A stretch of DNA of 64,000 nt from Beroe ovata. Its lineage: Eukaryota; Ctenophora; Nuda; Beroida; Beroidae. Both the position numbers and the translations under genes were made by a program. The notes beneath the pieces were generated by a model. That model worked only from the letters and a program-made list of their open reading frames with translations. It was not told where the DNA came from and did not search any database. The stretch is from assembly GCA_946803715.1 (NCBI GenBank), contig CAMPET010000027.1:119405-183404 (forward strand). Direction: 5' to 3'. This document shows positions 9,258-58,009 of this stretch, piece by piece (within the stretch, counting starts at the first letter, position 1; each line of letters opens with the position of its first letter).

Positions 9258-12200
9258 ATGGGCGAGAGCAGTTCCATTACTCCACAAGAAATGAAACAGA
9301 AAACAACTGAAATCTTTGAGAAAATAATGGCGCAGAGTAGCTTCAAACTATCTCGGACTGATGACAGCAATCAGGTCTTACTTCGTAGTTGTCACAAACT
9401 GTCGATTGTCGCACCTTATACGTAGATTTTAGATGATATTCTGTTAATTTCAAGAAAGCAGAAGGCCCCAATATAACAAAACTTGTCATTCAGGAGGCTT
9501 GTAGAAGTGATACAGATAATGATGAACCATTGAACATCAATAGAAAAAGGAGGAAAGTTGTGAAGAAAAAGCTGGTATCATCTTCTAGTGATGATGATTT
9601 CGAAGAGAGTCCGCTAAGGTGAGATTTGTCCCAACACTGCAGTCTTAATAAGCATGAAAAACTCGACTCCTCTTATGTAGTAATTATTGTGTTATTTTTT
9701 GTGACATTTTTCAGCCACTAATTCTCATACATGCGTTGTTGTTGATTGAGATTTCCCAGAAAGAGTTTATCACCGCCAAACCCGAGCTCCAAACGGAAAA
9801 CAAAGGCCTGCAAGCGCGGAAAAAACAACACCCTATCCAGTCCCAAAGCCAGGTGATCATTATTCATCTGCAGATCCACACATCATACCTAACTAGTGCC
9901 TATTAAGGTATAATTGCTTTCCTTGGTAATTCTCCTCTGTCCCCAGGTATATGACAAGGAACAAAAAGACAAGGAAGAAGATTTCATATGAAGGAGAAAC
10001 ACCTGAGAAACGAAACAGTAACTCTGACAGTGGCTCTATTCACAGGTTAATAAGCAAAGCAGGAAGCCTATTTTAGAGCCGTAGATCAATACCTAAAAAA
10101 TCTCATTTGATAACATTTTGATTACATTTAGATTATACTTTGTCTCTTTTCACAACATTTTAATAAAGGTATGACTATTGTTTTGGATGGTTTGATTTCT
10201 TAATGCATTTTAATTCGCTTTTACGTTTTTAACCAAAGAAAAGTAATTTGATGATTCATCACTTAGTAATTTTCTAATTATTATCTATAGTTAATTAATC
10301 TATTCAATTATGACCTCTCCATTTATCTTTTTGTTGCAATTTAAGCTACCCAAGTTGATTTGTTTGTGTGTGAAACTTAAGTTCTCATGACAGCCATACA
10401 TTCTACAATTATTGTATCACTCTGAAATATAGTCCTGATAGTGCTTTCATAGAAACTTAATACTTGCAAGCTGATACTGGCAATACTCTCGCCGCTGCAT
10501 GGAATATGTAATTCAATAATTGAACATTGTGTTGCTTACTTTGTCGCTAATCTTTGGCTGAACGATATCTCTGTACTAGGATGGAAAATATTTCAGTATT
10601 TTGGAGGATGCACTATGTTCCAGCGACGGTGATTGGACGGCTGGTGAGCAAAGGTGCGTACATATAATAGGCGGCATCAACGGTGCCAGTGATTCAATGA
10701 TCTTTTTTGACTGTCAAGTGAAGACTTCATGGAACGCGCGGCTATCATATTGTGCACGCCAGCAATCTGTAACGGCTTCACAAATTGCGCGCGCTGTAGT
10801 AGTCATTTATTCCTTTGACAAATAGCTAGCTAATTGAGTGTTGACTGATTGCCCACCCAATTGCTTAATTTCAACTTCCGTTAAAATGAAAGGTATTTAG
10901 CTAACCTAATTAGCGAACACACTAATCCTGATCCCATCTACCATGTCCGCTATTTCTGTCCAACTAATTGCTTTTTAATTGAGGGGCATCCTGTTAACTA
11001 TAGATGCTAATTACGTGCTGTATGACCCGTCTCGTCTACAATCTACATAGTAGATGTTTATTAGTTAATGAGTTTTCAAGATATTGTTCTCATGTATTAT
11101 TTCAGTATTGTGACCCTTGATTTAACGTCCATCTCTTGATCTTAGTAATTGTTTTCCCTTTACTTGACATATTACGACTTCATCCTGCAGTGAGGAACCC
11201 AAGTCAAAGAATATGCTATCACAAGAGGTGCCGCGTTCGAGCCGTATAGCATCCTGTAGCGATGATTTTGCACTGTCGGTTTCTAAAGGGAAGGGACCGA
11301 TTTCACGACTGAATAGGGAAACAAGTGAAGACAGTGATGATCCGTCGTTTCGTAATCCTAGTCGGCTGAGGAAGAAAGCCAACAGAATGTTCGATTCTGG
11401 TGACGAACAGGAAGACAGTGGACAGGACGGCGAGCGAGACAGCGAACAAGACGGTCAAGAAGACGGCGAGTCATCCCAAGAACCAGTGTTGAAAAATGTG
11501 TTGGATTCAGAGAGTCCGGCTGGTAGTCCCTCACAATGTATGGAAGTGGATAATGAGGGGGCTGAAGAATCCTCACAAGAAATGATGATTGTCTACAGAC
11601 CAAAAGGTGGGAAAATCTCGTAACCCGTATTATGAAAGTTGTGATTCTTCTAACGGTCGTTCACAAAAATGACATACTTTCAATGATAACTCAATTTCTT
11701 CATTTTCTTAGCAGTAACCCCGAAAAAGGCGGCACCAGTTTTTGGGCAGCAAGAAAAGAGGGTGAGAAAGGGCTACGGACGTTATGACGGCTCTTACTAC
11801 CGTGATAAAGCAGACGAGTGTGTCGCAAATCCCGGTGAAATGGATGATTTCATTGTACAGGAGGAACAATCATCGTCGTCAGAGAGTAGTGAGGATGAGA
11901 AGAGTCCCCCTAAGCGTGCGAGAAAACTGCAACTGGTATCAAGCGATGATGACAGGTTTGAGCTAGACTATAGTTCGCATAATTTGTTCCAATTTACAAA
12001 TGAGAGTGTGATGAGTATGTGATGAGTATGTGATGAGTATGTGATGAGTATGTGATGATAGCCTGAGTTCTCTCTACCTACAGCTCGACGAGGACACCTC
12101 CTGAAAATTCGGGTGAGGAGTCCGTGAGAGAGGGAAAGGAGACCGAAATCACACCAAGACGATCCTCACGACAAAAACCAGATAAACAGAGGGGAGGGTT

Positions 12201-15200
12201 GAAGGATTCTCTCGAGAAACTGCGCAAATCTCGAGAAACCGGGAAGATGCGTCATAGTTCTGGTGACGGGGAGTCCTATTCGGATTTAGATGAGGGTGCA
12301 CGCAAAAACAATGTCTATCGAGACGCTGAAGCTGAAAACTACTTCAATCATGGCGATTTTGCGAAGTTTGCCCGAGATTACGTTCCAAGACAAGGCGGAA
12401 GTGTGCGATCAAGACGGCCGAGAAGTCCGGAAGCAGAGGGAGTTGTCTCGAGTTCTGAGTGGAGTGATGATGATGATGTGGTAAGTGAGAAGAGTGATGA
12501 TCTACCTGTCATAAGGATGGATGTTGTTTTCCCAGAGGAGACAAGATGCAATGGTACAGCTGTTGAAGACGTGCATCCAGATGATACTGACGGAAGTGAA
12601 TTGGTGACAATTCTCAGGTTAAGCTCATCTCATCCAGATATTTATATCAGTACGCAGTACGCACTTTTTTACTGATAATTCGATATCGCGGACGTGTCTG
12701 TTGTTCAATCAATACAACCGTGTTTTTCCCCTCAGGCAAGGAAAAATCAGCGCCCTACCTTCAAATATAAGCCCAGATACCCATCCAAACCTCTTGTGTC
12801 AAGCCTCAAGAATCAGTACCCTAGAAATTGTCAGAGACCTCGTTGTTTGCTTCGGTTTGTGAATTGATTGAAATGAGCAGATAAACAGTACTACAATACG
12901 CTTATTCGTACTTTCTCTTAATTTACCTCTTTCTTATCAACTCACGTTCTTAACCAGGCTACGATGTGTGGAAGTCAGATAAGATTGGTCGTCCCCTGAC
13001 TCACGCTATTCTATACAACAGAAGTGACATTGTCCCTTTTCTGCTGCGGGAAATGCAGAACAAAGGACTGAAAATTGTCAACGAGATCTGTAGGAGGTAT
13101 TGCCGGAATTTCGATTCCACGTAACCAAGTTTCGACTTTCAATCAACATGAATAGCATCATGAACCTCTACACCTCCTGTTCAGATGTGCGAAGGAGTTA
13201 GCGCAGAACGTGGAGTGTTTGACAGCTGTCATAGATTGGCAGGAAAAAGACGAGGATTTGCAATGTATCGATGTTATTGACAATATACTGCGGGATGGTC
13301 GCGGGAGCAGAAAGATGTTTGGTACGTTGTTAACTGAATAAGTTGTATTACGACTCATGATATTTTGTATGCACCAAATCGTTGATTTGAAATATGGTAA
13401 GGCTGTTAATGCGCTAAACAACCGAAATTTTGTCAGAGGGTATCGGAGAGTCGCTATCTTCTTCTTCACTCGAACAAATCTACAATGTCAACCAAAGCTT
13501 GTCCGACTATTCCAATACAGAGCTACTTCTATTCAAATGTTTGGAAAACAAGGAAAGATGGGAGAAGGAAGAGACGTATTGTCTACAGTTCTTGGAATGT
13601 GTGATCAGTATACTCGGGAAATGCGTGATTGACGTGTGTGATAAGGAAGGATACACCCCACTGATGATTGCAGTCGCTAATGGTAAGTTGGCGTTACATG
13701 ATGACGCGCTATTCTGCATTCTACAATCACTACACAGTTCTCAGTTAGTACTTTTTCTGCAGATCCACGTAGCTCAAATCTCTCGTTTCCTCACTTTATC
13801 CATACTCTCAGGACTGATTCCAGCGGTGAAAGCACTCCTCAATCACGGTGCTGACCCTCTCGCGTTAGCATCATCCTCCGCCTCCTCCACCGACCCCTCC
13901 TACCTCTCCCAGCGATACCCTGATGCGCCCATACACACCACGGCACTGCACTTGGCTGCAGCATTGGGTCAGGACGAATGTGCCAAGATTATCGTGAAGA
14001 AGAACCGACAAACTCTCTCTGTTACCGACGAGTAAGTTGACTGAAGCTTCACGATGTCGGTTTGTCAAAAGAATGGGATATCTATTCACTGATGAGAAAA
14101 ATGTATTTCATTTGTCTCTGTATGCAACTGATCGGGATCAATTTCAGGGCAGGTTGGACACCCGTTATGTACGCAGTATATCAAGGACACTGGGATACCG
14201 TGAAGATGTTGTTGGGACGGACTCTGGCAGGTTCTTCATCTCTCATCTCGGCTATACACATGCTCAGAAATAGGAGGTATCACATAAGAAATGAGGAATG
14301 AGGATTGAGGATCATACTGTAACTACAGTCCCCGATCTTATTCTATCGGCGGGTGAATTTGTGACAATGAATTCAGGTATAAAAGCAGTGAGTCAGAACT
14401 GAGAGATAAGAATTTTGAGATGATTATCGAGTTGTTGAGGCATGTGGCGGAGAACGATGAGTACCGGGAACAACTCGACAAGTTGGTGGAGTCTTGTGCC
14501 ACGGGGACTTTCGGGAGACAGCTCGATGATCGGATTATTAACGAGCTATTCGAGATACCCGGCCTCATTTCACTTGGTTAGTACCTTGATTCGCGCGTGA
14601 AATGACCCAGCAAGTCTGAGATGATCATTTCTTAGCTTTTTTCAGTCCTGACATCCTTCGTTTTTCATGTGAATTCCTCAGCGACAAAGTTGAAGTATAT
14701 CAGGAGACACCACTCTCTAACATACTCTCGACACTGTCGAATAACTGTTAGAAGAGATGTTCTGCTGGAGGATCTCGTGACTCAGGGACGCATGATGGCT
14801 GGGTGTGGGCACCTGTCTGTGGGCTTCATCGGAGAACAAGCCGTTGGTCCAGGTTGGAAGTGTGATTGAACTCAGAGTTTTATCAAAACTCTATCAATAT
14901 AAAAAGCATTACTTCGCATCTATCAATAAAGTCCGACTATTTTCGTTCGTCGTTCCGATCAATGTTTAAACTCAGTTTTAAGATAGATTGGAATGACGAA
15001 CTATTATTTGTGCCTGAAACATGCCAGTTTCTCCCCCCTTCTGATGTTTCAATGACGGGAGCTTATTTCTTACCCTTCGTAACCCAGGTCCAACCAAAGA
15101 GTTTTACTCCCTGATATGTGATAAAGCTATGGAGGCTAAGCTGTTCGAACAGACGAAGGAGGGCTATGTCAAGTTTACGAATGTGATGTTACTCTACAAA

Positions 15201-16755
15201 GATGATGTCGAAAAGTTCGAATTCTTCAGAAATATGTTAGTTTCTCTGCCTCATTTCAATCTAGTATAAGAAGCAGGATTGTCGGATGTCGCTATTCACT
15301 GAGAAAACACTGAGTAAACACTCGTTTCAGCTACGAAGTTATTGGTGGACTTATAGCAAGATCTGTCTTGGCTAACATGCCAATTGGTCTACCCTTGTTA
15401 GAATATATCAGCAATTTCATTCTCGGGGGACATAAGAATGTCCTTAAAGATCTGGAGAATGCTGATAAGGATCTTTTCAATTCGCTCTCATCCCTTTCTC
15501 CTGAGGTAACAACTCTCATTTCCCCATCTCATATCTCTACTCTCGAGTTACGCTTATAAACTCCAGCTCAAGACTCTCAACCCTCCCCAGGAATTTGCCG
15601 ATCTAGAAATCCAGTTCTATGTGGACATAGTTGACCCGTTCACTGGGGAAACGAGGGAGGTGCCACTAAAGAGCAATATGGAGGAGGAAGTCATCGCTTT
15701 GGATAAGAAAGGGTGGGTATCATTGATGTTGAAATAGCCTGAGCCTTGATAAAACATTATGAGACGAGATTTTATTCCAAATGCACGCGACTTTTCCTCA
15801 AAGTAATCGACAAAATTGTGTGGAGCAAGCCGTAACCAGTTCTTCCCTCCCAGATACATGACGCTAAGGTCGAGGAAATGTTTATACGAGTTCGTGGAAT
15901 CTGAGCTGTGCGCGATAGAGCGCGGCTTTTCCAGCCTGTTTCCCGCCGAACTGAAGAAGATAATCACGCCCAAAGAACTGTCCGTGATTGTAGGAGGGGA
16001 GCAAAGTATTAACCTGCAAGATTGGATGTCCCATACTGCGTACACCAACATTAGTCAGGTATTATGCCCAGGGTATTTCATTCGATACCGTATATCCTGC
16101 TCCACCTTAGCTTGACGAAATCGGAAATAGATCTAAAGCCCCCATTGCGCGCGTAGTATTTGGGTCACGCAGCGCAGGAACACCATTGTCGCATTGCCTC
16201 TTTCTCGAATTGCTGTCTCATCACCAATTGACGCCCTAACGCCGTCCCCAGGAAACCAAGACGAATTTTTGGTCGATTGTCCAGTGTTTGAAGCAGGAAG
16301 ACAGGATGTTACTGTTACACTTTGCCACAGGCATATCACGCCTGCCTCCTGGTGGTTTTGCACAAATTCCGAGGTTAGAACTAATCATGTTGTTGTGAAG
16401 CATGCTACCGCCAGACTTCAGATTATGAGAAACTAGGTATATATTCTGTTTGGTAGTGGCTCAAGTGGGTAATGATTACCGTGTCAGGTTTAACCTGTGT
16501 AGAGCGCATGGGAGTGAAACAGATGTGCTACCCCGGGCTTCAACATGTTCCAATTCACTGATGCTACCCTCATACTTGGCTGTCGATGATAGCCCCTGTC
16601 GAGAATTCCATTGCGCGCGCGCCGCAAATCATTCTCGGCTCGCGTCAGCTGGGCCTAGCATCGCCAGGCAACCCTCATACACGTCTCGTGACGCTATGAG
16701 GAAATACATCCTCATTGCCATACGGTATGGAGCTAGAGGATTCGTGTTCGTATAA
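9258..16755 (+). CDS. Ankyrin-repeat HECT-type E3 ubiquitin ligase with acidic disordered N-terminus
   Basis: Predicted ubiquitin ligase of 1366 residues. Exons: 9258-9374, 9455-9618, 9760-9852, 9947-10045, 11191-11606, 11715-11955, 12084-12617, 12736-12854, 12958-13096, 13185-13321, 13437-13682, 13812-14031, 14148-14276, 14377-14576, 14646-14852, 15088-15235, 15331-15505, 15591-15712, 15854-16058, 16252-16373, 16488-16755. All phases agree. Residues 1-590 are low-complexity, rich in Ser/Asp/Glu clusters and basic patches. Ankyrin repeats lie near 595-885 (GRPLTHAILYNRSDIV, GYTPLMIAVANG, TTALHLAAALGQDE, GWTPVMYAVYQGHWDTV). HECT spans about 1000-1366 (VGFIGEQAVGPGPTKEF, LLLHFATGISRLPPGGF). The catalytic Cys is residue 1298 in LPRASTC, codon 16546-16548. 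Residues 1308-1342 come from a transposon insertion. I cannot assign it to HACE1, HECTD1 or another named member. Confidence 0.88.
10046..11190 (+). other. Long intron of the ankyrin-HECT gene
   Basis: Intron 4, much longer than its neighbours (mostly under 240 bp). It is AT-rich with a more GC-rich island at about 10600-10800, including gaacgcgcggc and ttgcgcgcgctg, which may be transposon-derived. No exon-like segment with correct phase was found. Confidence 0.5.
12007..12057. repeat. 11-bp tandem repeat in a HECT-gene intron
   Basis: About four and a half copies of gtgatgagtat, 26 bp upstream of the exon starting at 12084. Confidence 0.85.
16146..16180. mobile_element. Fragment of the GC-rich fold-back family in a HECT-gene intron
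   Basis: gcgcgcgtagtatttgggtcacgcagcgcagg matches a segment repeated at about 26455-26488, 26750-26780 and 56535-56567. It lies in the intron before the exon at 16252. Confidence 0.6.
16576..16670. mobile_element. 95-bp MITE inserted in frame in the HECT catalytic exon
   Basis: Flanked by the exact 10-bp direct repeat accctcatac (16566-16575 and 16671-16680). Its ends are imperfect inverted repeats: tggctgtcgatgatagccc, and tgcctggcgatgctaggccc on the opposite strand. The interior has gtcgagaatt and a gcgcgcgcgccgcaaa core shared with copies at about 5815, 26226, 26526 (inverted), 56145, 56415 and 57430. A target duplication of about 10 bp resembles Mutator-like elements, but no transposase is present to confirm this. 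Element plus duplication is 105 bp, a multiple of three, and contains no stop in the HECT frame. Confidence 0.88.
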
Positions 16756-17195: not shown

Positions 17196-17805
17196 TTGAT
17201 ACCTTATAACATCCACAATCAGTCTTTCAGTATGTGTCGTTGGCGTTTGTCTATCGATGATAGTCCCGTCTTCGCGACTCATGTCACTGCGTCAGCTTGG
17301 CCCGGCATCGTCGGGATCGGAATTAAACTGAGGGTAGATTCTGCGCGCACACATCACCGCGCGCGCGCGCGTGATTACTTGATATGCGCATTCATTTGAA
17401 GTATTGAAGCGTCGCGCCTTACGCAAGTACCGATTTAAAGCAAGACATATGATCTTTCCCCGAAATGGAACAAACTTGTCACAAAGTGGGGACATACAAG
17501 AATGGGCGAATGTTGATGAACTTAGATCTCGGGTGCAACAGNGCGCGTTACATAAACGCATAAAGCTCACCGAGTCGGCCCTTCGGGCCTCCTCGGTGAC
17601 CTAGCTCAACAGAAGCTACAGATGCCGCGGGGGGCTTGCCAGCCCCCTGATTAGATCGGAATTAGATCGGAATTAGATTTTTATAGAATCGGATGGTAGA
17701 TTCTGCGCGCACACGCCAACGCGCGTAATTACTTGATATGCGCATTCATTTAGAGTATTGAAGCGTCGCGCCTTACGCAAGTACCGATTTGAAGCAAGAT
17801 GAAAT
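17196..17805. mobile_element. Cluster of GC-rich MITE remnants with a duplicated 105-110-bp block
   Basis: Contains tgtctatcgatgatagtccc (MITE family end), a block at about 17334-17444 repeated at 17697-17802 (gtagattctgcgcgcacac ... gcgtcgcgccttacgcaag), an N at 17542, and an element with the ggcccttcgggcc stem-loop (17566-17643). No coding sequence recognised. Confidence 0.6.
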
Positions 17806-18439: not shown

Positions 18440-18692
18440 CACCACAAGTCATTTGACCAGCACCACAAGTCATGTGACCAGCATCCACAGTCATGTGACC
18501 ACAGTCATGTGACCAGCATCACAAGTCATGTGACCAGCATCACAAGTCATNAGTCATGTGACCAACATCCACAGTCATGTGACCAGCATCCACAGTCATG
18601 TGACCAGCATCCACAGTCATGTGACCAGCATCCACAGTCATGTGACCAGCACCACAAGTCATTTGACCAGCACCACAAGTCACTTGACCAAC
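18440..18692. repeat. 21-bp minisatellite just downstream of RAP1GDS1
   Basis: About eleven or twelve units of catgtgaccagcatccacagt and variants (accacaagtcatttgaccagc), with an N at 18551. The stop of the minus-strand RAP1GDS1 gene is about 30 bp away, so the array may lie in its 3' untranslated region. Related words (cacaagtcacttgac) recur at 51793-51830. Confidence 0.85.
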
Positions 18693-18720
18693 ATCACGCA
18701 GTCACATTATGGGTAGGAGG

Positions 18721-25692: not shown

Positions 25693-26139
25693 ACCCTGAA
25701 TGAGGATAAGATTGAATGGTACAAATTGGTATTATTATTATTATTGGTAAAAGTGCATAGGGGGAACAATTCTTGATAGTCCCTGACCATTCTAGTACTT
25801 ATAGAATTAGTAATGATCAATTACACAGAATTTTGACAATTTTTGTGATGAGTCTTCAAAAGTTTTACCATGATGATCAAATCTTTTAAAGCATTCCTTG
25901 AAATTTGCTTCCATAATTTACTATTTAGATTCACTGCTGAATCACTGCACTGCAGCTGTTTGATACAGCAATACTATTTCTATTTATATGCACAAGAGCA
26001 TGGAGAATGGAGATGATAAATGGTTAAATTGATATACACCAATAGTCAATACATGCAATATACATTGTTAAACTTTTATATTATAGTGGCACATCAACTT
26101 ATATGAACTTGATGAATTTGCCTGGCATTGATAGGCCTT

Positions 26140-26785
26140 CTGACGCGAGCCGGAGATTATTAGCGGCATATAAGTGCGTACGCGCGCGAAAACTGGGCCT
26201 ATAGTATACAGGCAACCAGTTGTCGATCGATGATAGACCCTGTCGAGAATTTCGTTTTTAATTGCGCGCGCGGCGCAAACTTATTGCTGACACAAGCCGC
26301 TTTGCGCCTTGTGGCTTGCATCAGCGGTTTCAGGTCTTGCATCGCCAGACAAGCATCCGCACCAGTGGATCACTATATCGTACTGCACACGTTGCGCGCC
26401 CCTGTTCTACTCATTGAACTGAAAAATCGTGAAAAGACCACGGACACGCGCAGCGCGCGCGGAGTATTTGGGTCACGCAGCGCGGGAANCGTCAGCAAGC
26501 CGCTGTCTGAGAATAAGTTTGCGCCGCGCGCGCGCGAAACGAAATTCTCGACATGGTCTATCATCGATCGACAATGCTGACACAAGCCGCTTCGCGCCTT
26601 GCGGCTTGCATCAGCGGTTTCAGGTCTTGCATCGCCAGACAAGCAACCGCACCAGTGGATCACTATATCGTGCACACGTTGCGCGCCCCTGTTCTACTCA
26701 TTGAACTGAAAAGTCGTAAAAAGACCACGGACACACGCAGCGCCGCGCGCGCGGAGTATTTGGGTCACGCAGCGCGGGAATAATC
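26140..26785. mobile_element. GC-rich MITE/fold-back cluster upstream of RAP1GDS1
   Basis: Two near-identical segments of about 200 bp (26287-26488 and 26579-26780; gctgacacaagccgctt ... gtcacgcagcgcggga) flank an inverted copy of the HECT-exon element (26526-26575: gcgccgcgcgcgcgcg ... ctatcatcgatcgaca). A direct copy of that element is at about 26226-26282. An N sits at 26489, at the end of the first segment. Open frames here follow the repeat and are not genes. Confidence 0.7.
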
Positions 26786-48400: not shown

Positions 48401-51400
48401 CTGAAAACGGTGTTTAGCTGGGATATAATGATGCACTGTTTAGGAAGAATAATGAACAACTCTCCCTCGCTTTCTTTTTCTGGAAGAAGAACCGATGTGT
48501 ACATCAGTTTTTCATATATATTATACGTCTTATATATTTATCTACTCTCTCCCCCTTCTTAGTCGCTACCACCAGATGGTAGGGGTAGCACCAGACTACA
48601 CACACAACTATATCATACACCGCATCATTTATCCAGGACAATGGGCAATTACCGAGTCTAAAATTAGATTTAATTTAATGAGGTACATTATTATGAAGTT
48701 TCGCATATGGTTGTACGACCGTCACTGTGACGACAATGGGCAGTGTGTGTTTAGCTGCTTCTTTCCACTAAAACAAATTGTATGCAGGAATTTGATGATA
48801 TTATGATCACCATGCCTGTGGATGAACTGGGATTCAAATCAATTGTGATCTCATTGCCTATGCACACTGTTCACTGAACAGGTCACTGTGTGACCTCAGT
48901 TGCTAGTGAGTAGTGACGTTAATGACTGAATTGTCGCTTCAAAAGTTCAAGTAAAGGTAAAGCAATTTAAACGTAGCGTGAGAAGAATTTGGGAAGTGTG
49001 AGAATATGAATCACTGGTTGGCATGGATGTGCTGATTATATGAGGGTTGCATGGTATAGTTCATGCACTTTTGGTTCTCTCCACCAATTACCTGTACGAG
49101 ATCACAGCGTCCAGATGATCTTTGTGTCACAAAACTGATTAACTGTAGACTTTCCATTGGTCGTTACCCTTGCGATGATCTCTCTCTCTCTCTCTCTGTG
49201 ATCACACGCGCCCTTCTTCTCTGAAAGATTCATTGATAATCAACAGCGGACAGCGGTGTACCATAATTTAATATGACTCAAATAAATTGTCAATAACCAT
49301 CTAACTCGAATCTATGATTTGATGTATGATATGCAGTTTATTCCATGGAAGAAACATGAATGATATCACGCACATGCCAGTGACATTATGATGAATAGTT
49401 TTGTTCAAAATGAGTTTCGAGAGAACATTGACTCAAACCTCACATTGTCCTCTATTTAGGCCGTGAATCCAGCTGGCAGCATCTGGTCCTTGGGCATGGA
49501 CAAGCGGCTAAGTCACATCACCCTCGTAAATATTGAACTACCGATAGTGCCTGATACTCGCAGGATAGTCTGGTTCTATCGTTCTACCATATTATAAACG
49601 ATTAGTCGCTACCACCAGTTCAACGATTCTAATTCTGACAAGCTGTTATAGCTACTTAGCTACGAAGCACTATACGTAGCCATCTTTTCTTACCTATTCT
49701 CAATCAACTATGACCTCATACAGTCATACCTTTCTTTCTTTAAACACAACTATCCTGGTTTCTACCCATCGACTAAGCTTAGTTTTTAACGACACTCTAT
49801 GACTCTATAGTTATTCAAATAATAACATCTAATCCTTGCTGGTGTATTGTGATTACCTACTCTCACGGTTTACTAACTACCTACCAAATGCGGATTGAGT
49901 ATGAATCTCTCGGTATATTTTGCTGGAATACTTCGACGATTGCACAACTTTTGCAATGTGTGAAGCGTCATAATCTGTCGCTGTGTAGTGCTTTTTGTGC
50001 TGTGAAATGTGATGTTTAAGAGAAATTCGCCATCATATTATTTTAGTAAGCTAATTGGTCAAACAGCCGCTTTCCAAAAGCGGGCTAATGCATTTTTCGT
50101 TGAAATAGACCTTTTATCCCAAATTTTGCGAATTACTCGCGGAGAAGTTAGACTGGAGAAGTACTACAAGTGGTATTGAAAAGAATTCTCAGAATTTCTG
50201 CAAACTCAAATTATCCCCTCGTGGTTATTGCCGTCTGGCATATTATATCCAATGGGGACTTATGCCCCAATTTCGAAGGCATATTCCAGCAGGGAAAGCA
50301 ATGATGCCCACACTGGCTACTTCAGATCTAGAAACACCCACCCCTGCCCCCTCTCTGTTCCCAATATCCCGTGTAATAGACACTAACGCCCCCCCTCTCC
50401 CAGGAGGAGCCAGAGGACAAGCCCGAGGAGGAGAGTGAGAGGCCCGCTGAGGAAGAGGAAGAGGATGAGGACGCAGAGGAACCACTCGATCTCTCGTGGC
50501 CCGATAGCGCCCGCGCTCGTCTCTTCTACATCATCCTGGCCCCCATCCTATTCCCCCTAGCTTTCTCAACACCTGATGTGAGACGAGCGGTTAGTTTGAA
50601 TACTGATTACCTATAACTCTATAATAGACCCTGTGTCGTTTGATTGCCTCGGCGCCTTCCCAGTGAGATTTGACGTGTTTTTCGATTCTTACCATCACTT
50701 TATCAAGTCGTGTGCTAGTCTCTCAGTAGCTATGTATACTATCGTGGTTCATAGCTCTCCGTCTCTTCATTTTTGGACTATCAGCCGATTATTCCTCCTT
50801 TAAGCAAGAGGAGTTGCCTGCGTCAACACTTAACTCGTTGAAAGGCATCGTCAATCACAAGTTTTATTCGAGAAACTAGTATTGGATTCCAGGAAAAATA
50901 TGAAGGATAATGAAGCTGCGTGTTAAAGCTTCCCTCTTGTGTATAGCGTGGTTCATCGGGTTGTACTTTGAGGGTTTTGGTAGTGAGGTTAAAGTATTTT
51001 ACTGCATGTTCAGGAAAATATAGATCTATGGAATTCGGTTGCCTAGTGTGAGAATTGGAATGCTCGCTGCTACCTAAGCATCACGTTTATAATAGAGTAA
51101 TAGGCAGGGTACCTATAATAATTAAATAGTTCAACACTGTCTACCATGAAGATATTCATCAGGAATTCAAACCACTCTTGGGATGATACTGCTGCGGTTT
51201 TTTATGTGTAAAGGAACGTTTTCCTTTACACACAAAAACAACAGATATCATGAATAATATCTGAAAGTTTGAGCGAAGCGATCACCCCCATTTTCCACTC
51301 CCTCACACCTAACACACCTGAGACACANNNNNNNNNNNNNNNNNNNNNNNNNNNNNNNNNNNNNNNNNNNNNNNNNNNNNNNNNNNNNNNNNNNNNNNNN

Positions 51401-55698: not shown

Positions 55699-57575
55699 GT
55701 GAGGTATGTTGACGTAATTGTATGGTGGATCAGGAGGGTCACAGAATTTCATCTCTATAAAATAGAATTTGACCCTTCTGATCCATACACGTGGATCACA
55801 GAGTTCACAGAGTTCACCGGTGACCCTCCTGCTCCTCATTGCTCATGCTCATGCGCTTCTCTAGCTCTGGGGTCAATGCCATGCGATCACAATGAAAGTC
55901 CGCGACGCGGACACGAAATTCGGTGACCATGACCATGACCCTCGTTGCTCAATTGATCGGATCGTCATCCAACTGACGTGGCCGTGGATCAAAATTACTA
56001 ATAAATTACTATCAAGCAGGGTCACGTCGCGTCCCTCGAATCCAATTTGACCCCAAAAAGTTAAGCGGCAAGCGCACGTCGCGTGGCCGTGGATCAGCTC
56101 AGAATAGTCATCCGACGCGAACCGAAAGCATGAGCAGAAGGTGAACTCGAGAATTTCGCTTCGTGCGACCGTGCGTGCGTGCGCGGCGCAAATTTATTCT
56201 CAGACATCGACTTCCTATTCTAATTGTTTCCGCAATCCCGCGCTGCGTGACGGCCCAAATACAGACTATATAAGTATACTCCGCGTCATTCGCGCGCGCC
56301 GCGTCTCCTTTCTACGACGCGCGACGCGACTTTTCAGTTCACTGAGTAGAACAGGGGCGAACAAAATGTGCAAAGTGCAGCATCGCCCGACAAAAGCCGC
56401 GCGAATATAATTTGCGCGCGAAATGAAATTATCGACAGGGGCTATCATGTCATTGACTGTGCACACGTTGCGCGCCCCTGTTCTACTCAGTGAACTGAAA
56501 AGTCGTAGAAAGGAGACCACGGAGACGCGCAGCGCGCGCGGAGTATTTGGGTCACGCAGCGCGGGAACATCATTGACAGCAAAAAAATTCGGCATCATCG
56601 ATGAAAATGGTCAAAACTCAAAGGCGAAGTCAAATATGAAATAGCATCCTCTTATTGGTTATCAATTATTATCGCGCCGCGCAATGCTCGAATGATATAG
56701 ATACTATATTACTATATTACTATGTGGCAGCTTTTGCATTGCATGATTATGTCGGCATTTTGTCCGATCCTGCTCAGCTTCCCTTGATGGAGGCTAGTGA
56801 TTGTATTAATGATTAAATGCCGAAATAGGGCTCGAAATTATAGAATTCCATGTTGTCATTCCATATGGGAAGTTCTTTATATGAAGTCCTCTATATGGAA
56901 GTTCTTTATATGAGTACCTTGAAAAAAGGTTATATAAAGAGAGCCTGGACCTGAACGGCCCACAAGAGGATTATCCCGAGANATAAAATAGAATTTGACC
57001 CTTCTGATCCATACTCGTGGATCACAGAGTTCACCTTAGGTGACCCTCCTGCTCCTCATTGTTCATGCGCTTCTCTAGCTCTGCATGGGGTCGATGCCAA
57101 GTGCGACAATGAAAGTCCACGACCGCGACGCGAGCACGAAATTCGGTGACCATGACCATGACCCTCTTTGCTCTTGATCCAACTTACGTGGCCGTGGATC
57201 AAAATTAGATCAAGCAGGGTCACGTCCCTCGCCTCAAATCCAATTTGACGGCCCCAAAAAAGTTAAGCGCAAGTGGATCAATATTGCGGCCGGATGTTAT
57301 CTGTCCACTCATGTTTCTTGCGCGCGCCAGCTTCATCGAAGGCCGATTTCGCTTCGGCCTTCGCGTCGATGAAGGCGCGCTTGCGCGAGAAACAGGTCAG
57401 GTAACATCTGACAAGTCGATGACTCGGTGACATGATAGCCCCGGCCCCTGTCGATAATTTCATTTCGCGCGCAAATTGTATTCGCGCGGCTTTTGTCGGG
57501 CGATGCTGCACTTTGCACACGTTGCGCGCCCCTGTTCTACTCAGTGGATTGAAAAGTCGCGTCGTAGCTAGCAGT
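55699..57575. mobile_element. GC-rich fold-back element cluster
   Basis: Includes a segment at about 55757-56080 that recurs at 56983-57275 (ataaaatagaatttgaccc ... aaaagttaagcg), the second copy starting at an N (56982). A large inverted repeat at about 56244-56567 has arms sharing cagttcactgagtagaacag and gctgcgtgac. A second fold-back at about 57295-57411 is centred on gaaggccgatttcgcttcggccttc. Inverted or direct remnants of the HECT-exon MITE family (gacaggggctatcatg) lie at 56435 and 57430. No credible gene. Confidence 0.65.
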
Positions 57576-58009
57576 CCTCTATATGGAAGTTCTTTATATG
57601 ATTACCTTGAAAAAAGGTTACTTAACAATGATAGTAATTTTTCAAGAATGCAAATGATTATTTGAGTTGATCCTCTGTCAAAATCATTCTATTCTATTCT
57701 GTTATTATATCATGTGTTGTGACCACATTTAATGGTTTTTCACAATTCACAATCTGTATTTGTATCTTTAATTTGTGTCTGTTATTGTCAGGTATCTGTT
57801 ATTGCTGATATGAATTTTGATCTTAATTTTATCTGAAATTGTTGTAATTGAAAGGTGATATTTAAACATCGTAGGATTTCTTCCTACCAAGGTGTTGGGC
57901 AATATCAATTGCATCCTTGACAGGCAATAAATCCCACCAGCCAGGGTAGAGAGTTATCTTACCAATTCAAGCAATAAATATCATTATTTATTACGTATCT
58001 TGCAGAAGA

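Follow-up and report, generated by a model that had tools for sequence, protein, structure and literature searches.

Results

An ankyrin–HECT gene with a lengthened last exon

The window, the whole stretch of 64,000 bp that was analysed, lies on contig C27 of a 77.8-Mb assembly made up of 534 contigs, and the genome searches reported here cover that assembly. On the plus strand it carries a gene for an ankyrin–HECT ligase (positions 11191–16755), modelled as 17 exons with 1,196 codons plus a stop. The 5′ end of the model is not fixed; all of its junctions are GT-AG with agreeing phases, and its single stop is terminal. Its Pfam matches are ankyrin repeats and a HECT domain (PF00632), the latter scoring 181 bits over profile positions 11–283 of 306. 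Two repeats of other kinds lie in the introns: a perfect 11-bp tandem repeat, TGTGATGAGTA, in 4.7 copies in intron 2 (12007–12058), and a second repeat family in intron 15 (16147–16208) with at least 49 other genomic matches.

The last coding exon (16488–16755, plus strand) encodes the catalytic Cys loop, an insert, the last helix, and the C-terminal tail, as read from its translation and its Pfam HECT match. It runs through LPRASTCSNSLMLPSY into 35 additional residues and then to TSRDAMRKYILIAIRYGARGFVFV and the stop. The catalytic Cys codon, at 16546–16548 on the plus strand, falls in the motif LPRASTC, as an alignment that includes 10 further HECT C-lobes from this genome shows; the residues SNSLMLPSY follow. 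An earlier, sequence-only reading of this DNA had placed an insertion ten residues past the active-site Cys, and translation of the exon bears this out. Taken alone, the exon matches HECT profile positions 254–283 of 306, and the match ends where the insertion begins. In the alignment with the 10 other C-lobes, the tail beyond profile position 283 resumes after the insert, and this remaining part (16681–16752, plus strand), TSRDAMRKYILIAIRYGARGFVFV, comprises the last helix and the −4 Phe, aligned with the 10 other tails.

The gene thus described has the marks of a HECT E3 ligase, namely the profile domain, the catalytic Cys of the C-lobe, and a tail with the −4 Phe, and it has the motif LPxxxTCxN in common with HACE1, ITCH, and Rsp5. 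It is unlike those three enzymes in the 35 residues added between LPxY and the last helix. A short turn at this point is a common feature of the HECT family and not part of its definition.

HACE1 is an ankyrin–HECT ligase, and orthology of the window gene to HACE1 was considered and rejected: the top PDB match of the window gene is ITCH (108 bits), HACE1 scores 94 bits, and another gene of the genome, L031, matches HACE1 at 364 bits. L031 (C9:59583–60500) is a HACE1-like ankyrin–HECT gene with one open frame of 909 aa, intron-free in the part seen, compared with 16 introns in the ankyrin–HECT gene of the window.

Structure and boundaries of the insertion

Between LPSY and TSRD lie 105 extra bp that are in frame and free of stops, so that the reading frame runs on into the HECT tail, as the earlier reading had stated; they encode 35 residues, counting those of a duplicated 9 bp. 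That reading had divided the 105 bp into a 95-bp element and a 10-bp duplication. The total and the inverted ends stand, and the split is better drawn as 96 + 9, since the ends fall out of register unless the last A is assigned to the element. With this split the ends pair in register at 16 of their first 20 bases. The duplication is taken as 9 bp and not 10 because the tenth match falls within the element's symmetrical TTG…CAA ends, which agree with those of its family. All three parts are given on the plus strand: the left copy of the target duplication, CCCTCATAC, occupies 16567–16575 and is repeated exactly at 16672–16680, where PSY recurs, and the element between them (16576–16671), delimited by family matches and inverted ends, supplies 32 codons in frame.

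Exact 9-mer repeats at a spacing of 105 occur at 61 positions of the window, two of them here (16566 and 16567). The other 59 are confined to dense runs at 18468–18493, 51328–51353, and 55977–55983, the first of which lies within a tandem array. Downstream of the gene, 18440–18704 is a minisatellite with 21-bp units and a higher period of 105 bp.

The insert adds two Cys residues, which lie 17 and 22 positions past the catalytic Cys. Its RNA is predicted to form a hairpin of −38.3 kcal/mol (z −2.2; 6 of 200 shuffles were as good), to which we give no evidential weight.

A genome-wide MITE family

The left 26 bp of the element are found at 186 places in the genome with at most one mismatch, against none for the reversed control. 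A family similarity search, in which 40 of 533 first-look candidates were scored, gave at least 50 matches; 60 fetched, partly overlapping loci yielded 45 distinct two-ended copies once copies seen twice or without both ends had been dropped. Exact flanking duplications of 8 bp were found at 27 of these complete copies and of 9 bp at 10, with none at the remaining 8. The transposon origin that had been proposed from the inverted ends and the target duplication therefore holds up, in that a multi-copy family with matching ends is flanked by duplications at 37 of the 45 complete copies. By its sequence features (short length, inverted ends, high copy number, no coding capacity, and near-constant target duplications), the element is a copy of a genome-wide miniature inverted-repeat transposable element (MITE) family. 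The word "exonised", used in the earlier reading, is wrong for it, as the coding exon was already there when the element arrived, and neither an exon nor a splice site was gained. In the window, further members of the family, partial or nested, form clusters at 26118–26642 and 56176–57690, and a degenerate relative lies at 17247–17310.

The closest of the 45 copies, L002, differs from the HECT-exon copy at 2 of 96 bases, and the insertion into the HECT exon is therefore probably recent. A 26-base stretch over the centre of the HECT-exon copy is unique in the genome, and one of the base differences of this copy is also found in one longer copy; the 96-bp length may thus predate or postdate the insertion. 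If it arose afterward, the original insertion could have been out of frame.

Total length is divisible by three in 7 of the 37 copies with a duplication, and an open in-frame insert results from 13 of 222 combinations of copy, strand, and phase, two of the 13 coming from the HECT-exon copy itself. An open in-frame outcome is thus uncommon for the family. As evidence of selection this proportion is weak, because the HECT case was picked for being open.

Frames of at least 120 aa that span an element by 30 bp number five, at 4 of the 45 copies, a count that could miss short coding exons because the frame of the HECT exon itself, at 108 aa, falls below the 120-aa cut. Neither these five frames nor three further spanning frames (at L011, L030, and L080) gave a Pfam match. 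Around the 45 copies, 99 frames reach 75 aa or more, and the Pfam scan covered nine of them. At L021, a 437-aa exon assigned by Pfam to alanyl-tRNA synthetase is separated from the MITE copy by about 190 bp. The genome has transposase matches of the MULE (seven), hAT (four), and IS1595-like (three) types; the search for an autonomous partner covered 4 of these 14 loci, with about 1.5 kb on each side, and found the family ends at none of the four.

Other HECT C-lobes lack the insert

At LPxY|xS, ten further HECT C-lobes encoded in the genome can be aligned without any added residue, and an eleventh, L088, likewise has none; identical second copies enter this count once, and a HECT-like stretch on C389 is left out as having no recognisable C-lobe end. 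All 11 recognisable C-lobes other than that of the window therefore agree with the ancestral join LPSY-TSRD that had been deduced from the repeated PSY. Among the sequences in PDB to which the Rsp5 tail has a match, 56 of 56 span the site without an insert and with lengths within one residue, although this control is lenient, as a local search tends to miss or shorten chains with a long insert. The residue following the catalytic Cys is Ser in the window gene and F, M, I, V, or G in the 11 others, and on this comparison the enzyme may already have been unusual before the insertion.

Among the 50 matches listed for the locus (40 of 452 candidates scored), none is a second haplotype or paralogue lacking the insert: one is the locus itself, and the other 49 are a 35–62-base repeat of intron 15. 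A genome-wide HECT search for an alternative last exon detected no second C-lobe exon on the contig of the window, and a homologue and orthologue search gave 0 of 1,707 candidates at E ≤ 0.001. Elsewhere in the genome, L034 (C204) and L035 (C412) are HECT matches of identical score, length, and tail, representing either a recent duplication or separately kept haplotypes. L089 (C389:4500–9500), a HECT-like stretch in which neither the C-lobe Cys nor the tail is recognisable, is possibly a decayed gene.

Position of the insert in the enzyme

Structure models were weak (mean pLDDT 56 and 61), and only secondary structure was taken from them. In the model of the related HECT domain of L031 (mean pLDDT 60.7), a strand spans residues 277–280 and a helix residues 286–298, with the insertion site in between, in the strand–helix turn. 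Modelled by itself (mean pLDDT 56), the exon has values below 50 for residues 29–51, which make up most of the insert, and a confident last helix at about 86. The best 50 of 134 Foldseek matches are HECT structures, with TM scores of at most 0.59.

In a study of Rsp5, donor ubiquitin is contacted by L771, L798, A799, E802, and T803, the −4 residue Phe806 is required for ligation, and Phe778, the residue after the Cys, matters for ligation (PMC3738095). Work on UBR5 describes the same ubiquitin contact as made by a Leu-Ala pair of the C-lobe (PMC10830417), and according to a review this interface is kept up throughout catalysis (PMC13196369). By alignment, the window gene has Leu, Ile-Ala, and Phe at the positions of Rsp5 L771, L798-A799, and F806, and Tyr and Gly at those of E802 and T803. 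Counted back from Phe806, the insertion falls between Y786 and V787 on Rsp5 numbering, past the Cys strand and ahead of the helix whose far end contacts ubiquitin. Because the site lies in the strand–helix turn, a loop could be carried there with the ubiquitin-contact residues unmoved.

Discussion

We give about an even chance to the reading in which a 96-bp MITE with its 9-bp duplication sits in frame in the last exon and its 35-residue loop is likely disordered and likely tolerated. In the sequence of events that we envisage, the MITE would have inserted recently into an existing last coding exon, duplicating 9 bp, and the insert would be translated as a predicted disordered loop of 35 residues just past the catalytic Cys. 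The loop would exit from the turn between the post-Cys strand and the last helix; the last helix would then remain able to dock and to offer ubiquitin the end that contacts it, with at least partial enzyme activity kept. The main argument for tolerance, which we infer from the position of the site, is that the loop may be carried without shifting the contact residues. The Tyr and Gly aligned with E802 and T803, and the Ser after the Cys, weigh against it. Tolerance is also supported by the frame of 1,196 codons, intact across the 17 modelled exons, although that frame may just reflect a lack of time to decay, because the element and its closest copies are alike at all but 2 of 96 bases.

Nearly as likely, and ranking slightly below the tolerated loop, is a weakened or segregating allele: the C-lobe would be disrupted and the protein weak or dead, the insertion being either recent and polymorphic or the start of the gene's decay. 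We hold this to be a serious possibility, somewhat short of an even chance. The near-identity with other MITE copies suggests youth, and the last helix, which belongs to the surface that binds ubiquitin, would now be attached through a long linker. The near-constant length of the turn in all HECTs compared hints at a constraint, which also counts against tolerance. However, the assembly shows no second, empty version of the locus among the matches listed, the modelled exons are free of stops and frameshifts, and the tail with its −4 Phe is kept. As to functional outcome, the data lean toward an insert that is tolerated or not yet purged, choosing neither.

A function for the loop itself, such as that of a Cys-bearing flap tuning ubiquitin transfer, we consider improbable. 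Being both in frame and open, as only 13 of the 222 family combinations are, and having two extra Cys close to the active site speak in its favor; against this, the insert looks disordered in the weak model and the case was chosen for being open. The specific form of a regulatory insert made by a transposon, in which a mobile Cys-bearing loop at the hinge of the last helix would tune ubiquitin loading or transfer, seems to us equally doubtful.

If the element behaved like an introner, it would be removed from the mRNA and the loop never made. The family does have a GT close to its left end and an AG close to its right end, and with an 8-bp duplication these sites would, by arithmetic, leave 18 bases, in frame; introners adding bases in such a way are described in a study of these elements (PMC9860276). 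In the HECT-exon copy, however, the same pair, which is the one nearest the element ends, takes out 86 bases and leaves 19, shifting the frame. When all GT-AG pairs of the exon were enumerated, none removed the element exactly, and none removed it in frame while sparing the catalytic Cys and the tail. Pairs beginning upstream of the element lose or break the Cys codon, and the sole in-frame pair that spares the Cys and the tail removes just 51 bases. The donor GTs of the element score −3.8 and −5.1, below the 5.1 to 10.2 of the gene's 16 donors, on a matrix built from those same 16 donors. Splicing-out of the element is thus unlikely by these sequence measures, and we regard the introner-like account as very improbable. 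An assembly artefact that misplaced the element into the exon can be dismissed almost outright, since, although the element is repetitive and the window holds 183 N, the target duplication is exact on both sides, the element is shorter than common read lengths, and 11191–16755 contains no N.

The tolerated loop and the weakened allele would carry different lessons. A MITE in a catalytic lobe, ten residues past the Cys, amounts to a loop-insertion experiment carried out by nature. Activity of the enzyme would mark the turn ahead of the last HECT helix as permissive and would mean that a MITE had lengthened an enzyme core in a single step. An inactive enzyme, by contrast, would show clearly that a MITE had disabled an E3 with the reading frame undisturbed.

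Comparison with known in-frame mobile elements

The phenomenon, in-frame reading of mobile elements, is known, and the location in a HECT lobe is unusual; our literature search found no paper joining HECT domain, transposon, in-frame insertion, and ubiquitin ligase. Introners, as described in the study cited above (PMC9860276), resemble the HECT-exon MITE in being non-autonomous, in having inverted ends and duplications, and in targeting coding exons. They are spliced out, whereas no usable splice pair was identified for the HECT-exon MITE, which is in frame when left unspliced. In Pandoravirus salinus, according to one report, MITEs overlap predicted reading frames and so, like the HECT-exon MITE, are read as protein (PMC4495683). 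Those MITEs extend the ends of frames or form a whole frame, whereas the HECT-exon MITE interrupts a conserved catalytic domain.

Rickettsia palindromic elements (RPE) are small palindromic mobile elements that lie in frame in coding genes and add a peptide, and the HECT-exon MITE is like them a palindromic mobile insert read in frame (PMC10969869). The comparison is by analogy only, as the host here is a eukaryote with introns. RPE are bacterial and about 150 bp long and have hit many genes (PMC10969869); the HECT-exon MITE differs in being eukaryotic, in belonging to a family with 8–9-bp duplications, and in being the one recognisable coding case in 45 copies. Should the loop prove regulatory, the RPE peptides would have in it a eukaryotic equivalent, set within the active-site lobe of an enzyme at a point where length hardly varies among the other HECTs compared.
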